From positions 1 through 64,000 of the forward strand of contig NZ_JAHYJB010000004.1 of NCBI RefSeq assembly GCF_019429335.1: DNA of 64,000 nucleotides. Direction: 5' to 3'. Under the pieces are notes generated by a model. The model had not been told where the DNA came from. It was given only the letters and a program-made list of their open reading frames with translations, and did no database searches. Every line of letters begins with the position of its first letter. The stretch's first letter is position 1. Position numbers and translations under genes: made by a program. This DNA is from Sulfurimonas sp. (GTDB lineage: Bacteria > Campylobacterota > Campylobacteria > Campylobacterales > Sulfurimonadaceae). Below are positions 17,682-27,409 of this stretch, piece after piece.

Positions 17682-17714
17682 AATATACATCATTTTGCTA
17701 AAATGGTGTATATT
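17682..17714. promoter_or_regulatory. Inverted repeat at the antitoxin promoter
   Basis: AATATACATCATTTT (17682-17696) and AAAATGGTGTATATT (17700-17714) are inverted repeats with one mismatch around GCT. A smaller palindrome, ATCATTTAATGAT, lies at 17668-17680. They sit 15-60 bases before the antitoxin start, the expected place for an autoregulatory operator. The 17500-17680 stretch between the array and this site holds no recognisable gene. Confidence 0.45.
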
Positions 17715-17729
17715 AAAATATTGGAGTTC

Positions 17730-17966
17730 ATGATGTTAGCTTTAAAACAAGAACAACTTTTTGAAGAAATAGATATTTTACCAATAGATTTAAAGACTGA
17801 AATTGTGGATAAGATATTGGCTAGTATTACACCGCTAAGCAGTGAAATATACAAATTATGGATAAAAGAAGCTAACAAAAGAAAACAAGAAATCGAGTCA
17901 AATTCCGTTAAGTTAGTTGATGGAGATGAAGTTTTTAAAAAAATATCTCAAAGACTCCACTCATAA
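17730..17966 (+). CDS. Addiction-module antitoxin (Unstab_antitox-type)
   Basis: The frame gives 78 residues from ATG 17730, chosen because GGAG lies five bases upstream; the earlier in-frame ATG at 17703 falls inside the inverted repeat. The sequence LFEEIDILPIDLKTEIVDKILASI ... WIKEANKRKQEIESNSVKLVDGDEVF (shown in part) matches the small acidic antitoxins annotated as addiction module proteins, which pair with ParE/RelE-type toxins. The C-terminal VDGDEVFKKI is typical. The stop abuts the toxin start codon (17967), indicating coupling. With the partner toxin frameshifted, it may now be an orphan. Confidence 0.75.
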   Translation: MMLALKQEQLFEEIDILPIDLKTEIVDKILASITPLSSEIYKLWIKEANKRKQEIESNSVKLVDGDEVFKKISQRLHS

Positions 17967-18258
17967 ATGACCTACTCTTTCCACCCAGATGCTGAACTTG
18001 AATTAAATGCTTCGGTTGATTATTATCAAGAGTGCAAAGATGGACTTGGAGGAGAATTTGCATATGAAGTTCAAAAAAACAATCCAAAGAATTTTAGAAT
18101 ATCCAACTGCTTGGCAAAAACTGAATATGGATATAAGAAGATGTTTAACAAATAGATTTCCATTTGGAATAATTTATTTTCAAAGAGATAATAAAATTAT
18201 TATTTTAGCTGTTATGCAACTAAACAGAAAAGCAAACTATTGGAAAAGTAGAAAATAA
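17967..18258 (+). pseudogene. ParE/RelE-type toxin, frameshifted in an A7 run
   Basis: The toxin begins MTYSFHPDAELELNASVDYY and reads normally to FAYEVQK. It then runs into the homopolymer A7 at 18073-18079. Downstream the family sequence (TIQRILEYPTAW, RRCLTNRFPFGIIY, ILAVMQLNRKANYW) continues one frame over and ends at 18258. Removing one A restores a continuous protein of about 96 residues, the normal size of ParE/RelE mRNA interferases or gyrase toxins. Three explanations fit: a disabling mutation, slippage on the A7 run, or a sequencing error. Confidence 0.72.
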
Positions 18259-21345: not shown

Positions 21346-21413
21346 TCCTCGCTCCTTGGTTTTATTGTATGTCCAATTCTATACTTTTTTGGTTACTTTT
21401 ACAAGTAAAATGT

Positions 21414-21419
21414 TATAAT
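21414..21419 (+). promoter_or_regulatory. Candidate -10 box of the arabinofuranose operon
   Basis: A perfect TATAAT lies 24 bases before the UbiA gene, in the divergent gap shared with the DJ-1 gene. The ribosome-binding site TTAGGAG follows. No clear -35 box is visible. It is probably the promoter for 21443-26765, since no other gap in that block is long enough for one. Confidence 0.4.
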
Positions 21420-21442
21420 CCCGCATTAATTAGGAGAAGTTT

Positions 21443-22309
21443 TTGATAGAAATTTTAAAGCTCTTTAGAGTCCACCAATATATTAAAAATCTATTTATTT
21501 TTATGCCACTGCTCTTCTCCTTCTCTTTTGCAAATATTAACGACAATCTAAATACGCTTATTGCGTTTATACTTTTTTCTCTTCTTGCAAGTAGCATCTA
21601 TATCTTTAACGACCTTATGGATATCAACGAAGACAGAGTGCATCCAAAAAAGAAGTATCGCCCTTTGGCAAGTGGCAGAGTCTCTATGAACAGCGCAAAA
21701 GCGCTTATCTTGCTCCTCTCTATCTCATCTCTTAGCATCTCATTTGTTGTAAACATCGAGCTTTTTGCGGTAATGATTATATATTTTCTTCTCAATATCT
21801 CCTACTCTCTTAAACTAAAACACATAGCTATTTTGGATATTTTCATCATTGCAACAGGCTTTGTTCTGCGTCTTTTTGCAGGCTCTGCAGTTACAGGCAT
21901 CTCCCTCTCAATGTGGATAATTCTTATGACTTTTCTGCTCGCTATCTTTTTGGCGCTTACAAAAAGACGAGATGACGTTTTGCTCTCCCTTGAAGGTCAA
22001 GAGACGCGAAAAAACATAGACGGATACAACTTAGAGTTTGTAAATGCGGCAATGGTTTTAATGGCTGGAGTTGTCATTGTAAGCTATATCCAGTACACAA
22101 TCTCGGCCGAAGTTATAGAGAGGCTTGATACAGAGTATCTCTACCTTACCTCTTTTTTCGTCATTCTTGGAATTTTTCGCTATATGCAGATTACTTTTGT
22201 TGAGCAAGACAGCGGGAGTCCTACAAAGGTGGTCATAAGAGACAGATTTTTAAAAGTTACGATTTTTCTCTGGCTGCTCACCTTTATCGGAGTTGCAAAA
22301 CTTACATGA
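21443..22309 (+). CDS. Decaprenyl-phosphate phosphoribosyltransferase-like (UbiA superfamily)
   Basis: A 288-residue UbiA-fold membrane enzyme with about nine helices. RVHQYIKNLFIFMPLLFSF and FNDLMDINEDRVHPKKKYRPLASG carry the NDxxD...D prenyl-diphosphate-type motif in the form typical of DPPR synthase (mycobacterial UbiA, Rv3806c); LTKRRDDVLL is the second acidic motif. That enzyme transfers phosphoribose from PRPP to polyprenyl phosphate, the first step toward polyprenyl-phospho-arabinose. Start codon is probably TTG or the first in-frame codon after TTAGGAG. The dprE1-dprE2 neighbours strongly support this over ubiquinone or heme synthesis. Confidence 0.85.
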   Translation: MIEILKLFRVHQYIKNLFIFMPLLFSFSFANINDNLNTLIAFILFSLLASSIYIFNDLMDINEDRVHPKKKYRPLASGRVSMNSAKALILLLSISSLSISFVVNIELFAVMIIYFLLNISYSLKLKHIAILDIFIIATGFVLRLFAGSAVTGISLSMWIILMTFLLAIFLALTKRRDDVLLSLEGQETRKNIDGYNLEFVNAAMVLMAGVVIVSYIQYTISAEVIERLDTEYLYLTSFFVILGIFRYMQITFVEQDSGSPTKVVIRDRFLKVTIFLWLLTFIGVAKLT

Positions 22310-22695
22310 TTGCTCTTTGGTACGCGCTATTTGCGTTAATCTCTACTGCCGTAAATATTGCATTTCAATACCTTAGTTTTTTGGTTTACGATGGAGAGTT
22401 CTCGCTCTATGTGGCAATGGTTACGGGAACAGTTGCAGGGCTTGTTTTAAAATATATTTTGGATAAAAAATATATCTTTTTTCATACTCCAAGGAGCAAA
22501 AAGGATGACGGCAAAAAGTTTTTTCTCTACTCTCTTATGGGCGTTTTTACGACGTCTATCTTCTGGGGTTTTGAGATTGGATTTGACTACATGCTTGAGA
22601 GCCAAAACGCAAAATATATAGGCGCAGTAATAGGTCTTGGCATAGGTTATGTCGTTAAATATTTTTTAGATAAAAAATTCGTCTTTAAGGATTAG
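22306..22695 (+). CDS. GtrA family membrane protein
   Basis: A 129-residue protein with four membrane helices. The repeated VLKYILDKKYIF and VVKYFLDKKFVF segments after helices 2 and 4 are the GtrA signature. GtrA proteins are thought to help move polyprenyl-phosphate-linked sugars across the inner membrane. It overlaps the UbiA gene by four bases (ATGA) and precedes dprE1 by two. Predicted role: flipping the arabinofuranosyl lipid to the periplasm for the GT39 enzyme. Confidence 0.88.
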   Translation: MIALWYALFALISTAVNIAFQYLSFLVYDGEFSLYVAMVTGTVAGLVLKYILDKKYIFFHTPRSKKDDGKKFFLYSLMGVFTTSIFWGFEIGFDYMLESQNAKYIGAVIGLGIGYVVKYFLDKKFVFKD

Positions 22696-22697
22696 TC

Positions 22698-23990
22698 GTG
22701 GGACTACTTAGCTGGGGAATGTACCCAAAGATAAAAAACAAAATCTTCTCTTTAAGAAGCAAAGAAGCGCTTGGCGCATATATCGAAAAAACGGATGAGT
22801 TCATCCCGCACGGAAACGGCAGAAGCTACGGTGATTGTGCTTTAAACGAAAATATTCTCTACGCTAAAAGATATAACAATTTCTTAGCATTTGATGAGCT
22901 TAGCGGCACTCTTACATGTCAAGCTGGAGTTCTTCTTAGCGAAATACTCGACACCTTTGTGAAACGCGGATGGTTTTTAAAAGTGACCCCTGGAACCAAG
23001 CTTATCACCATTGGCGGAGCGATTGCAAGCGATGTTCACGGAAAAAACCACCACGTAGAGGGGTGTTTTAGCGAATGCGTTTTAGCGTTTGACATCATGT
23101 TGCCAAACGGCGAGATAAAGAGCTGTAAAAAGGGCGATGAACTCTTCCGTGCAACATGCGGAGGGATGGGACTTACCGGCGTAATACTAGCTGCAAAAAT
23201 AAACCTCAAAAAAATAAACTCCAAAAATATAAACCAGACAACCATAAAGACAAAAAACCTAAAAGAGACTTTTGAAGCCTTTGAAAACTATCAGGAGATG
23301 CCCTACTCCGTGGCGTGGATAGATTGTTTGGCAAAAGACGAGGAGATTGGAAAGTCTCTGCTTATGGTCGGAGATTTTGCCGACGACGGCGACTTGGATT
23401 ACAAAAGCAAAAAGAAGCTAAGCATCCCGTTTAACTTCCCCTCTTTTGCACTTAATAACCTGAGCGTAAAAGCTTTTAACACTCTCTACTACGCAAAAGC
23501 GAAAGACGGTGTATCCAGACAAAAAGTAGATATAGACACCTTTTTCTACCCGCTCGATGCCATAGGCAACTGGAACAGAATCTACGGAAGCGGCGGTTTT
23601 ACGCAGTATCAGTTTATCCTGCCAAAAGAGAGCAGTTTTGAGGGTTTAAAAGAGATTTTAACCAAAATTTCTGCTTCAGGCAAAGGCTCATTTTTGGCAG
23701 TTTTAAAACTATACGGCAAAGAGAATGGAAACTACCTCTCATTTCCGCTAGAGGGCTACTCGCTCGCGCTTGATTTTAAGATAGAGGCGGGTCTGTTTGA
23801 GCTTTTAAACACTCTTGATGAGAGTGTTGTTAAGTACGGCGGCAGAATTTATCTTACAAAAGATGTGCGCGTCAGCTCTGAGATGTTTGAGAAGGGCTAT
23901 CCGCTAGTAGAGAAGTTTCGTGCGTTTAGAAGAGAGAACAACATGGATAAAAAATTAAATTCACTCCAATCAAAAAGGATAAAAATATGA
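22698..23990 (+). CDS. dprE1: Decaprenylphosphoryl-beta-D-ribose 2'-oxidase DprE1
   Basis: A 430-residue FAD oxidoreductase of the vanillyl-alcohol oxidase fold. The FAD-binding segment HGNGRSYGDCALNEN (about residue 35), the PGTKLITIGGAIASDVHGKNHH core and the C-terminal YGGRIYLTKDVRVSSEMF match DprE1; the lysine in LTKD aligns with the catalytic Lys418 of M. tuberculosis. DprE1 oxidises the ribosyl lipid to the 2'-keto form. At the place of the mycobacterial cysteine hit by benzothiazinones (about Cys387) this protein has alanine (SLALDF). The start is GTG at 22698. It overlaps dprE2 by four bases. Confidence 0.92.
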   Translation: MGLLSWGMYPKIKNKIFSLRSKEALGAYIEKTDEFIPHGNGRSYGDCALNENILYAKRYNNFLAFDELSGTLTCQAGVLLSEILDTFVKRGWFLKVTPGTKLITIGGAIASDVHGKNHHVEGCFSECVLAFDIMLPNGEIKSCKKGDELFRATCGGMGLTGVILAAKINLKKINSKNINQTTIKTKNLKETFEAFENYQEMPYSVAWIDCLAKDEEIGKSLLMVGDFADDGDLDYKSKKKLSIPFNFPSFALNNLSVKAFNTLYYAKAKDGVSRQKVDIDTFFYPLDAIGNWNRIYGSGGFTQYQFILPKESSFEGLKEILTKISASGKGSFLAVLKLYGKENGNYLSFPLEGYSLALDFKIEAGLFELLNTLDESVVKYGGRIYLTKDVRVSSEMFEKGYPLVEKFRAFRRENNMDKKLNSLQSKRIKI

Positions 23991-24718
23991 GCTACATTCT
24001 GATAATAGGCGCAAAAAGCGACATCGCAAAAGAGGTGGCAAGAGTATATGCCAAAGCAGGCTACAACCTCTATCTTGCAGCTAGAGAGTGCTCATCTTTA
24101 GAGGATTTAAAGCAGGATATCGAAATAAGAGGCGGCGTGGAAGTGGAGCTTAAAGAGTTTGACATTACAGCCTATGCGACTCATGAAAACTTCTACGACT
24201 CGCTTAAAAAAAGACCGCTTGGCGTTATAGTCGTCTCCGGTTATATGGCTGAGCAAAAAACGGCGCAAAAAGAGTGGATTGAGACTCTAAACACCATTAA
24301 CGTAAACTACACAGGAGCCATCAGCATCCTAAACATAGTCGCCAACGATTTTGAAAAAGAGAGACGCGGCTTTATAGTCGGTGTCAGCTCTGTTGCGGGT
24401 GAGCGAGGAAGAAAAGCCAACTACATCTACGGAAGCGCAAAAGCAGGCTTCTCTGCCTACTTAAGCGGTCTTAGGAATAGACTCCATGAGAGCGGGGTGC
24501 AGGTTCTAACAGTGAAACCGGGCTTTGTTGATACAAAAATGACAGAGGGGCTTGACCTGCCTCAAAAACTCACGGCAAGCCCTAGCGAAGTGGCAGAAGA
24601 TATCTTTAATGCCCAGCAAAAAGGAAGAAATATTCTCTACTCAAAATCTATCTGGATGATTATTATGCTAATCATCAAGCATATCCCTGAGTCTATTTTT
24701 AAGAAAATGAGCATATGA
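23987..24718 (+). CDS. dprE2: Decaprenylphospho-beta-D-erythro-pentofuranosid-2-ulose reductase DprE2
   Basis: A 243-residue short-chain dehydrogenase. It has a Rossmann start ILIIGAKSDIAKEVAR, catalytic serine in GVSSVAGERGRKANY, and the YGSAK (YxxxK) motif near residue 147. The SVAGERGRKxNYIYGSAKAG stretch is especially like mycobacterial DprE2. It reduces the 2'-keto lipid to the arabino epimer, completing epimerisation with DprE1. The C-terminal hydrophobic stretch (WMIIMLIIKHIP) may anchor it to the membrane. It overlaps both neighbours by four bases. Confidence 0.92.
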   Translation: MSYILIIGAKSDIAKEVARVYAKAGYNLYLAARECSSLEDLKQDIEIRGGVEVELKEFDITAYATHENFYDSLKKRPLGVIVVSGYMAEQKTAQKEWIETLNTINVNYTGAISILNIVANDFEKERRGFIVGVSSVAGERGRKANYIYGSAKAGFSAYLSGLRNRLHESGVQVLTVKPGFVDTKMTEGLDLPQKLTASPSEVAEDIFNAQQKGRNILYSKSIWMIIMLIIKHIPESIFKKMSI

Positions 24719-26190
24719 GAAGCAGCTACAATCAAGAGATTCGCATCCTCTTTGCAATCTTTGTTTTTAAGATTATTTTACTCGCGCTTCTGCCACTTAC
24801 CGGAGATGAAGTCTACTTTATAAGGTGGGCGCAGAACCTGAATATAGGCTACTACGATCACCCACCGATGGTCGGCTGGCTGATTTATCTTATGAACTAT
24901 ATCAGCGGCTCGCATATCTTTTTCAGACTTTTTGCAGTTGCAACCACATTCGTTGCGGCTTTTGTCATATATAAAATTGCTCTGCTTTACAGAGTAGAGA
25001 GATCAAAAGCACTATTAACCTCGTTTGCATTCTTGGCTTCGCCGGTTGATCTGCTTCTTATGCTTATGACAAACGACGTCGCCCTACTCTTTTTTGGCTC
25101 GCTCGGAACTCTCTTCTTGTTATACTCCTTAGAGAAAAAAGAGTGGCTTAGATATTCTATTCTGGCAGGTCTGTTTTTGGGCTCCGCATTTTTAAGCAAA
25201 TATTTTGCAGTTTTTCTGATGCTCTCGCTGCTTATTTTCTCTTTTTACATGTACAAATTAAAAGCCCTAAAAAACGTCTTAATAGTAAGCGCAGTCGTAT
25301 CTCTATTTATAGCCCAAAACCTCTACTTCAACTACAACAGCTGCTGGAACAACATAATGTTCAATTTTTTTGCCAGAACCGAGGAGAGCAATTATAACAT
25401 AGGCACGATTATCGGCTATTTTGGACTTATTCTCTACATCTTGACTCCATGGGGAGCCTACTTTTTATTTAAGACAAAATTTGAAAAAACAACACTTTAT
25501 AAGCTTCTGCTATCAATTCTTGGTGTTGCGTTTTTTATCTTTTTTGTTGTCTCGCTAAAGAATAAAATAGGACTTCACTGGTTCTTGCTCTTTACACCAT
25601 ATATATTTCTGTTCTTTAGCTTTTTGGATGAGAAAAATCTTGCAAAACTCTTCAAATACAACGCGATTTTTACATTTCTGCATGTAGCTGTTTTTATGAC
25701 TCTTTTACTGCTTCCAACCTCGCTCTTAAGTGGACACAAAAAATACTCAGATGTTGTTATGTACACACAGCCACAGAACATCTGCTCAGAGCTTGAGAGA
25801 TTTGATGATGAGAGGATTTTCACATCCAGCTACTCTACCGCCTCACTGCTCTCGCACTACTGCAAAAGAGATTTGAAGGTTCTTTTTAACAACTCAAAAT
25901 ATGGTCGCTTAGATGACAAACTTTTGGATGTAAGAACTTTGGCAGGCAAAGAGATTGCCATCTTTAATAAAAGCCCGATTAGAGAGGAGCTCTTAAATGG
26001 GGTTTGCAACTCTTACATGTTAGAAAATTTCGAGGCAGACGGTGCAATTTTTTATACCGCAAAATGCAGCGGGTTTAAGTATGATGAGTATAAAAAACGC
26101 TATCTTGATTATCAGAATGAGAAATTTTACAACATTCCACCATGGCTTCCTGTTGGAAAATGCTACTTTAAAGAGAGGTATTATAAATGA
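24715..26190 (+). CDS. GT39 (ArnT/PMT-like) lipid-linked-sugar glycosyltransferase
   Basis: A 491-residue protein with about 11 membrane helices and a C-terminal periplasmic part (about residues 345-491). The first loop carries LTGDEVYFIRWAQN with the catalytic DE pair and YYDHPPMVGW, both diagnostic of GT39/ArnT-type enzymes that use polyprenyl-phosphate sugars outside the membrane. In this operon the likely donor is polyprenyl-phospho-D-arabinofuranose. The acceptor (LPS, glycan or protein) cannot be read from sequence. It overlaps dprE2 and the HAD gene by four bases each. Confidence 0.87.
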   Translation: MRSSYNQEIRILFAIFVFKIILLALLPLTGDEVYFIRWAQNLNIGYYDHPPMVGWLIYLMNYISGSHIFFRLFAVATTFVAAFVIYKIALLYRVERSKALLTSFAFLASPVDLLLMLMTNDVALLFFGSLGTLFLLYSLEKKEWLRYSILAGLFLGSAFLSKYFAVFLMLSLLIFSFYMYKLKALKNVLIVSAVVSLFIAQNLYFNYNSCWNNIMFNFFARTEESNYNIGTIIGYFGLILYILTPWGAYFLFKTKFEKTTLYKLLLSILGVAFFIFFVVSLKNKIGLHWFLLFTPYIFLFFSFLDEKNLAKLFKYNAIFTFLHVAVFMTLLLLPTSLLSGHKKYSDVVMYTQPQNICSELERFDDERIFTSSYSTASLLSHYCKRDLKVLFNNSKYGRLDDKLLDVRTLAGKEIAIFNKSPIREELLNGVCNSYMLENFEADGAIFYTAKCSGFKYDEYKKRYLDYQNEKFYNIPPWLPVGKCYFKERYYK

Positions 26191-26765
26191 ATCTGGCACT
26201 TTTTGATTTTGACGGCACACTTACGACAAAGGACTCGCTTGACGAGTTTTTAAAAGAGAGTGTTGGCAAAAAAAAGTACATGTTAAATATGCTCAAATTT
26301 GTTCCGTACTTTATACTTTGGCAACTTAGGCTCATGAATAACGGTGTGGCAAAAGAGCATCTGTTTAGGATATTTTTCAAAGGGACGGATGAGGAGTTTT
26401 TTAAAAAAAGAGCAAAAGAGTTCTCACTTACAAAACTAGACTCTATCATCAACAAAGAGAGGATTAAAATCCTAAGAGAGCATCAAGAAAAAGGAGACAG
26501 AGTCGTCATTGTATCAGCCTCTATGCGCTGTTGGCTGCAGCCTTGGTGCGACAAAGAGGGTATTGAGTTGCTTTCAACGCAGCTTAAGTTTAAAGATGGG
26601 CTCTTCAGCGGCAAATTTTTAACCCCAAACTGCCACGGAAAAGAGAAAGCAAGACGCATACATGAACACATTGACGTCAGCGACTATGAGACTATTTACG
26701 CCTACGGTGACAGCTCCGGAGACAAAGAGATGCTCGCTCTTGCGCACAAAAGCATACGTTACTAA
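26187..26765 (+). CDS. HAD-IB family phosphatase, candidate DPPR phosphatase
   Basis: A 192-residue HAD hydrolase. Motif I is FDFDGTLTTKDS (nucleophile Asp8-Asp10), motif II VSASMRCW, and motif III/IV YAYGDSSGDKEML near residue 170. The family includes phosphoserine phosphatase-like enzymes. As the last gene of the operon with a four-base overlap, it could remove the 5'-phosphate from polyprenyl-phosphoribose-5-phosphate, the step between UbiA and DprE1. In mycobacteria a PAP2-type protein (Rv3807c) has been proposed for it. Assignment of this step is inference. Confidence 0.8.
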   Translation: MNLALFDFDGTLTTKDSLDEFLKESVGKKKYMLNMLKFVPYFILWQLRLMNNGVAKEHLFRIFFKGTDEEFFKKRAKEFSLTKLDSIINKERIKILREHQEKGDRVVIVSASMRCWLQPWCDKEGIELLSTQLKFKDGLFSGKFLTPNCHGKEKARRIHEHIDVSDYETIYAYGDSSGDKEMLALAHKSIRY

Positions 26766-26824: not shown

Positions 26825-27409
26825 ATGAACCATACAAACAACTACGCCGTGCAAGAAGACGAAATAGATTTAAGAGAGCTTTTTAAAACTCTTGCAAAAA
26901 ATAGAAAAATTATTATTTTTACAACTCTCATAATTACTCTTGCTGCGATTGTTTATGCCTTAATGAAAAATCCTACTCCAGTTTATCAAGGAAAAGTTTT
27001 AGTTGAGATCGGTGAAATCCAGAGTGATAATTTTGGCACCAGTTATTTTGATAATCCTGATAACTTATCTATTGTTGTATCTAATCAATTTGAAAACATA
27101 TCCGCTTCTGTTCCAAAAGGTACAAATAAATTGATTGAACTTACATCTTCAAGTACTAATAAAGACTTAATATCAAACAATTTAAACAGTGCCGTCTCTT
27201 TTATTTTAGAGAGACATAAAGAAAAAGCAAGCTTTCATACTAAGCATATAATGACAAAACAGATTGGAGAGACTCAAATAGATGGCACTCCAATAAATAT
27301 TCCAAAGAAAAAGCTCATTGTCGCAGTCGCTTTTGTAACGGGTCTGATTTTATCTATATTTTTCGTCTTTTTTCTAGAGTTCATCAGGAACGAAAAGAGA
27401 GAAAAATAG
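26825..27409 (+). CDS. Short Wzz-like chain-length determinant protein
   Basis: A 194-residue protein with an N-terminal membrane helix (KIIIFTTLIITLAAIVYALM, residues about 35-54), a periplasmic part of about 110 residues and a second helix near the C-terminus (LIVAVAFVTGLILSIFFVFF). DEIDLRELFKTLAKNRK at the N-terminus is typical of Wzz/polysaccharide co-polymerases, which normally have about 300 residues and a proline-rich motif before helix 2; here that motif is poor and the periplasmic domain short. It starts after GAGAGGAAAA, 59 bases downstream of the HAD gene, and suggests surface polysaccharide as the context of the operon. Confidence 0.78.
   Translation: MNHTNNYAVQEDEIDLRELFKTLAKNRKIIIFTTLIITLAAIVYALMKNPTPVYQGKVLVEIGEIQSDNFGTSYFDNPDNLSIVVSNQFENISASVPKGTNKLIELTSSSTNKDLISNNLNSAVSFILERHKEKASFHTKHIMTKQIGETQIDGTPINIPKKKLIVAVAFVTGLILSIFFVFFLEFIRNEKREK

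Follow-up and report, generated by a model that had tools for sequence, protein, structure and literature searches.

What would a member of the Campylobacterota do with the genes of a sugar pathway that is familiar chiefly as a target of tuberculosis drugs? The question is raised by six genes at positions 21443-26765 (+ strand) of a 64,000-nucleotide stretch of Sulfurimonas sp. DNA (contig NZ_JAHYJB010000004.1, positions 1 to 64,000), referred to here as the window. The operon formed by these genes very probably makes lipid-linked D-arabinofuranose (D-Araf) and adds the sugar to a periplasmic acceptor. The argument draws on gene order, family identity, conserved catalytic residues, the fold of the transferase, and co-inheritance, all of which were computed here.

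Gene order and the predicted donor pathway

The six open reading frames (ORFs) run in the same direction; four of their joints are 4-base overlaps and one is a 2-base gap. Domain calls with Pfam and NCBIfam give the order UbiA, GtrA, DprE1, a DprE2-type short-chain dehydrogenase/reductase (SDR), PMT_2/GT39, and HAD. Both ORF and domain calls agree with the run of genes described in the initial annotation:

21443..22309, + strand: UbiA-fold protein of the polyprenyl-phosphate 5-phosphoribosyltransferase kind (PPPRS/DPPRS type), TTG start (NCBIfam, PDB, loop residues)
22306..22695, + strand: GtrA family protein, predicted lipid-linked sugar flippase (Pfam, NCBIfam, locus conservation)
22698..23990, + strand: DprE1-type flavin adenine dinucleotide (FAD) oxidase, predicted to oxidize C2 of polyprenyl-P-ribose (NCBIfam, PDB, motifs)
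23987..24718, + strand: DprE2-type SDR keto-reductase (NCBIfam, PDB, catalytic residues)
24715..26190, + strand: PMT_2/GT39-like GT-C transferase, candidate arabinofuranosyltransferase (Pfam, AlphaFold fold match, invariant residues, co-occurrence)
26187..26765, + strand: HAD-IB phosphatase, candidate 5-phosphatase for polyprenyl-P-ribose-5-P (Pfam, TIGR01490, motifs, fusion homology)

In the mechanism that we infer for these proteins, UbiA would transfer 5-phosphoribose from phosphoribosyl pyrophosphate to polyprenyl (undecaprenyl) phosphate, and HAD would take the 5-phosphate off the resulting polyprenyl-P-ribose-5-P. Oxidation of C2 by DprE1 and reduction of the keto sugar by DprE2 would convert ribose to arabinose. 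GtrA would flip the lipid-sugar over the inner membrane, and the ArnT-fold GT39 would pass D-Araf to the acceptor. The outcome would probably be a single side-chain residue, because the genome has only one such transferase.

The first protein scores 228 bits against the NCBIfam model for decaprenyl-phosphate phosphoribosyltransferase and at most 57 bits against unrelated UbiA types, with the quinone and heme types lower still. Its closest solved structure is mycobacterial (8j8j, E value 1e-35), and the alignment spans the entire NDxxDxxxDRxHPxK stretch. Within loop II, N56, D57, D60, and D64 are kept in 104 of 104 homologues; the equivalent residues are required for activity (Kelly 2024, PMC11127046). 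Grouping with heme or quinone prenyltransferases, the outcome that would have spoken against the initial annotation, was not seen when UbiA was compared with the DPPR synthases, which are its best match. A second UbiA gene, separate from the cassette, is present in the same genome.

The HAD protein (Pfam HAD 127 bits; TIGR01490 above cut-off) carries DxD, SAS, K, and GDxxxD motifs that are invariant among homologues and include the catalytic Asp residues D7/D9. A phmmer search of the PDB with this protein gave no match. In other phyla, DprE1 often adjoins a fusion protein of 476-520 residues whose N-terminal half is HAD and whose C-terminal half is UbiA. A profile comparison of the lone HAD with the N-terminal halves of these fusions gave an hhalign probability of 97.7% (E value 2.6e-12). 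The fused HAD-UbiA of Citrobacter makes polyprenyl-P-ribose by experiment, and efficient dephosphorylation depends on the Asp of its HAD domain (Kelly 2024, PMC11127046). The HAD protein is a candidate 5-phosphatase mainly because it is homologous to the phosphatase half of such fusions, of which the Citrobacter protein has been shown to be active.

DprE1 scores 375 bits against the DprE1 family of NCBIfam and 48 against the next family, and its best PDB matches are solved DprE1 structures (E value 2e-72). Its HGKNHH motif and K388 are conserved across 117 homologues. DprE2 scores 356 bits, above cut-off, against PRK07102, with DprE2 as the best named function; the PDB chain that it matches best is the DprE2 of a DprE1-DprE2 entry, at 106 bits against 57 for the runner-up, and its catalytic S135-Y148-K152 is invariant among homologues. 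Clustering of either protein with non-epimerase oxidoreductases was not seen; both match the epimerase pair best. Across phyla, the catalytic residues of UbiA, DprE1, and DprE2 are invariant or nearly so (about 100 homologues). One further DprE1 residue, A357, aligns with the cysteine that is attacked by benzothiazinones and is Ala in 98% of the 117 homologues. An alanine in place of the attacked cysteine would predict natural resistance to covalent DprE1 inhibitors.

GtrA (Pfam GtrA 43 bits; NCBIfam gtrA_1 171 bits against a cut-off of 50) is a conserved neighbor of DprE1 (47 of 48 Campylobacterota loci) and is predicted to be the lipid-sugar flippase. The GT39 protein (Pfam PMT_2 58 bits) is the sole PMT_2 protein in the genome. 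Sequence searches of the PDB with GT39 and GtrA gave no meaningful match. The best solved fold for the AlphaFold model of GT39 (mean pLDDT, a per-residue confidence score, 88) is ArnT (5f15; Foldseek E value 3e-6, TM score 0.62), with 13% identity over the structural alignment; weaker fold matches follow to oligosaccharyltransferases, PMTs, EmbA, and AftB. All of 41 homologues keep D31, E32, and D48. A transferase role for GT39 is likely. Together, the best matches and conserved catalytic residues point to a predicted donor pathway that is complete from phosphoribosyl transfer to export, with dephosphorylation and C2 epimerization in between, and that has a dedicated GT-C transferase, as originally proposed for this operon. 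Computationally, the case for the donor pathway is strong.

Inheritance of the cassette and its variable transferase

DprE1 is found in 20 of 397 sampled Campylobacterota species (11 of 68 genera) and in 33 of 135 species of the genus of the window. Public genomes hold at least 577 DprE1 relatives, in at least six phyla besides Campylobacterota; the best 80 of these include Bacteroidota, Pseudomonadota, Chlorobiota, Kiritimatiellota, Thermodesulfobacteriota, Myxococcota, and others. The earlier picture of a pathway of which a few other bacteria have parts is thus outdated, since DprE1 relatives are widespread and complete systems have been published (Kelly 2024, PMC11127046; Pseudomonas pilin arabinosylation, PMC12369383).

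The 48 Campylobacterota DprE1 loci contain UbiA in 47 cases, GtrA in 47, DprE2 in 44, HAD in 42, and a GT-C-like protein in 40. As anticipated, the full six-gene order recurs, both in many genomes of the same genus and in several related ones (loci L112, L122, L123, and L003); the exception is L123, where a Na/Ca exchanger precedes GtrA and UbiA is not at its expected place. In other species of the genus, the order is kept at 70-85% DprE1 identity. The usual site in the genus is between a DJ-1 gene and pyrD, or adjoining DJ-1, and in other species (L159-L162) DJ-1 and pyrD are directly adjacent, leaving the site empty. The six-gene arrangement is therefore not a product of chance: its order recurs in other Campylobacterota, and same-genus genomes with an empty site exist. 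The window DprE1 falls within a 12-member clade of site-bound cassettes (support 99/98). A GT39 ortholog is present in 31 of 33 DprE1 carriers and in 1 of 102 non-carriers of the genus (Fisher p 5e-27, shared ancestry ignored). The sole non-carrier with GT39 is a contig edge that cuts inside DprE2, and the two carriers that lack GT39 have other large membrane proteins. The cassette is inherited as one unit, a movable module.

Four records titled Desulfamplus, Cyclobacteriaceae, Methylococcaceae, and Thiomicrorhabdus (L005, L008, L011, and L013) have a DprE1 that falls among the Campylobacterota ones in the tree. Either horizontal transfer or, for metagenome bins, mis-binning would account for them.

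Campylobacterota loci without GT39 often have, at or near the same place, another multi-membrane protein of 500-650 residues (L113, L178, L175, L187, L004, and others). Most of these slot proteins are not alignable to one another, and Pfam recognizes no family in those of L113, L005, L020, L011, L030, L175, L178, and L187, some of which are from other phyla. By a crude rule based on length, hydropathy, and acidic residues, 69 of the 687 non-core ORFs in the vicinity of DprE1 are GT-C-like, GT39 itself included, versus 11 of 322 far from it. The slot proteins may be GT-C enzymes.

Some loci of the same genus are extended and read GT39b-UbiA-GtrA-DprE1-DprE2-GT39a-HAD. Several then add an LPG_synthase_TM (PF03706) membrane protein, a GT9 heptosyltransferase-type gene, and a third PMT_2 gene; three PMT_2 genes are found in L174, L180, L182, L183, and L114, and a sulfatase-fold gene of EptA-like size adjoins in several. 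GT39b and GT39c are not necessarily arabinosyltransferases, because weak matches to them occur in genomes without DprE1. Two genomes carry two donor cores each, G403 (L174 and L175) and G264 (L116 and L119). The two cores of G403 are flanked by different transferases, as would fit a single donor that serves more than one acceptor.

A broader scheme can be put forward only tentatively: the Campylobacterota module would be a transferable D-Araf donor that is used by unrelated GT-C proteins in each lineage for many acceptors, with this genus decorating lipopolysaccharide (LPS) near the heptose core or lipid A. LPS decoration with D-Araf of the heptose core or lipid A type was not found in the literature searched.

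The acceptor and rival explanations

Several observations weigh against a D-Araf system of the kind proposed. UbiA, DprE1, and DprE2 miss their NCBIfam equivalog cut-offs (228 of 234, 375 of 500, and 184 of 250 bits, respectively). These cut-offs are naming thresholds, and the arabinose-pathway functions are still the best named functions by far; because of the scores, the two epimerase proteins are called DprE1/DprE2-type rather than mycobacterial equivalogs. The donor specificity of GT39 is not readable from its fold: the donor of ArnT provides 4-amino-4-deoxy-L-arabinose (L-Ara4N), and further GT-C enzymes transfer yet other sugars. No measurement of D-arabinose in Campylobacterota surface polymers was found in the literature searched. 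Across the genus, O-antigen ligase and the cassette do not co-occur significantly (p 0.2), and no ligase of this kind is detectable in two carrier genomes that are nearly complete. Thus, an O-antigen acceptor is not demanded.

Where, then, would the sugar go? On contig C10 of the genome, a GT9 heptosyltransferase-type gene adjoins an O-antigen ligase-type gene, together with other LPS-type genes, and an STT3/PglB-type gene and pilin-like genes are also present. With these genes in the genome, LPS, a glycoprotein, and pilin are all possible acceptors. LPS is favored because of the ArnT fold of GT39 and because a GT9 gene lies beside the cassette in sister loci; as the leading guess, LPS (core, lipid A, or O-antigen) has about an even chance of being the acceptor. 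Capsule or another glycan is a distinctly less likely target, on a par with pilin or another glycoprotein. The initial annotation had expected the acceptor to be new. As far as LPS is concerned, pentofuranose already has a precedent in the phylum, since one strain of H. pylori has a ribofuranose oligomer (riban) in its LPS (PMC5371381).

The alternative that survives best is a protein acceptor in place of LPS, on the model of Pseudomonas paraeruginosa: the cassette would arabinosylate a type IV pilin or some other glycoprotein. Pilin is indeed the target of the best-known Gram-negative D-Araf pathway (PMC12369383), the pilin-like and STT3/PglB-type genes of the genome would fit such a role, and protein O-glycosyltransferases are among the GT-C folds. 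However, no pilin or oligosaccharyltransferase gene lies near the cassette, the GT39 fold is closest to ArnT, and sister loci hold GT9 (heptosyltransferase-family), other glycosyltransferases, or a Bac_transf initiating transferase. A protein acceptor is a minority prospect, though an appreciable one.

An improbable alternative is that GT39 adds a lipid-linked pentofuranose other than D-arabinose, because the pathway stops at ribose or yields another epimer. Systems of the same kind do operate with ribose or xylose, and the Citrobacter transferase takes either donor (Kelly 2024, PMC11127046). Yet DprE1 and DprE2 sit between other genes of the cassette with their catalytic residues kept, and xylose systems use a different, single epimerase, whereas D-arabinose glycans pair with DprE1/DprE2 (Kelly 2024). 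Least credible is a decayed or unrelated set of DprE-like oxidoreductases and a quinone-type UbiA, neighbors by accident, which would suit the scores under the equivalog cut-offs and the shortened Wzz gene next door but is strongly disfavored by the conservation data: every frame is open, active sites are conserved, the order recurs at 70-85% DprE1 identity, quinone and heme UbiA families score far lower, and the genome has its second, separate UbiA.

Two features flank the operon:

21411..21442, + strand: promoter-like extended -10 TGTTATAAT (21411-21419) and Shine-Dalgarno AGGAGA (21432-21437), read by eye, function putative
26825..27409, + strand: Wzz-family gene, shortened, probably outside the conserved cassette (Pfam Wzz 44 bits)

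The Shine-Dalgarno sequence ends 5 bases ahead of the UbiA TTG start. In the promoter consensus scan as a whole, matches were no more frequent than in shuffled sequence. The G+C content of the operon resembles that of the flanking DNA.

Wzz was considered as a member of the cassette and rejected, since the slot between HAD and pyrD varies between relatives and the window copy is shortened. It has 194 residues and is internally shortened relative to the 332-residue protein of L109 (12159-13157); relatives have 318-332 residues. Within the genus (the window, L109, L166, L107, and L108), the HAD-pyrD slot is hypervariable, being empty or holding a Wzz of 318-332 residues, the shortened Wzz, a Wza-Wzc-CpsB export set, or unrelated genes; one variant has a 262-residue ORF and a metal P-type ATPase. 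The Wzz context, once taken as a pointer to a surface glycan, is weak evidence for the acceptor because the slot is variable and this copy has shrunk. Elsewhere in the window (17703-18258), two adjoining small ORFs of 87 and 83 residues resemble, by eye, an addiction-module antitoxin and a ParE/RelE-type toxin.

Comparison with known pentofuranose systems

No report of DprE1 in Campylobacterota was found in the literature searched, and the cassette extends the pathway known from tuberculosis to this phylum. Because a single operon holds candidates for the 5-phosphatase, the flippase, and the transferase, the whole pathway is testable in one construct. Species of one genus with the cassette and with an empty site offer a natural comparison and a direct route to the acceptor.

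One close relative in design is the three-component extracytoplasmic pentofuranose system of Citrobacter youngae O1/O2 (Kelly et al. 2024, PMC11127046), which likewise joins a phosphoribosyltransferase of the UbiA fold to a HAD phosphatase; its flippase and its GT-C transferase have predicted counterparts here. In such systems, optional epimerases set the sugar, and D-Araf glycans are linked to DprE1/DprE2 homologues (PMC11127046). The window differs in having HAD as a separate gene, GtrA rather than MATE as the predicted flippase, and a transferase of the PMT_2/ArnT fold. The Pseudomonas paraeruginosa PA7/Pa5196 system (PSPA7_6245-6251 and TfpW; PMC12369383) resembles the cassette as a Gram-negative D-Araf donor route with UbiA and a periplasmic GT-C transferase. 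There, TfpW lies beside the pilin gene and pilin is the acceptor, whereas the cassette includes its own transferase and has no pilin gene in its vicinity.

The mycobacterial decaprenylphosphoryl-D-arabinose pathway (Rv3806c, DprE1, DprE2, Rv3789, and Aft/Emb) is the source, by wide margins, of the solved structures most like UbiA, DprE1, and DprE2. Its proposed 5-phosphatase, Rv3807c, is unrelated to HAD, and its many transferases build a polymer, in contrast to the one transferase here, where arabinogalactan is not expected. ArnT, which transfers L-Ara4N to lipid A, is the best fold match of GT39 and draws on an undecaprenyl-phosphate pentose donor of the kind predicted for the cassette. However, the sugar and donor route differ, and the likeness of GT39 to ArnT is one of fold, at 13% identity; GT39 is not classed as ArnT here.

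The cassette is a member of the polyprenyl-phosphate pentofuranose glycosylation systems (Kelly 2024; Pseudomonas pili) and is not unprecedented; within one operon it combines a lone HAD gene, GtrA as the predicted flippase, and a transferase of the ArnT fold. Possible novelties are its spread in Campylobacterota, the PMT_2 transferase with an ArnT fold, and the pairing of a donor core with interchangeable transferases.

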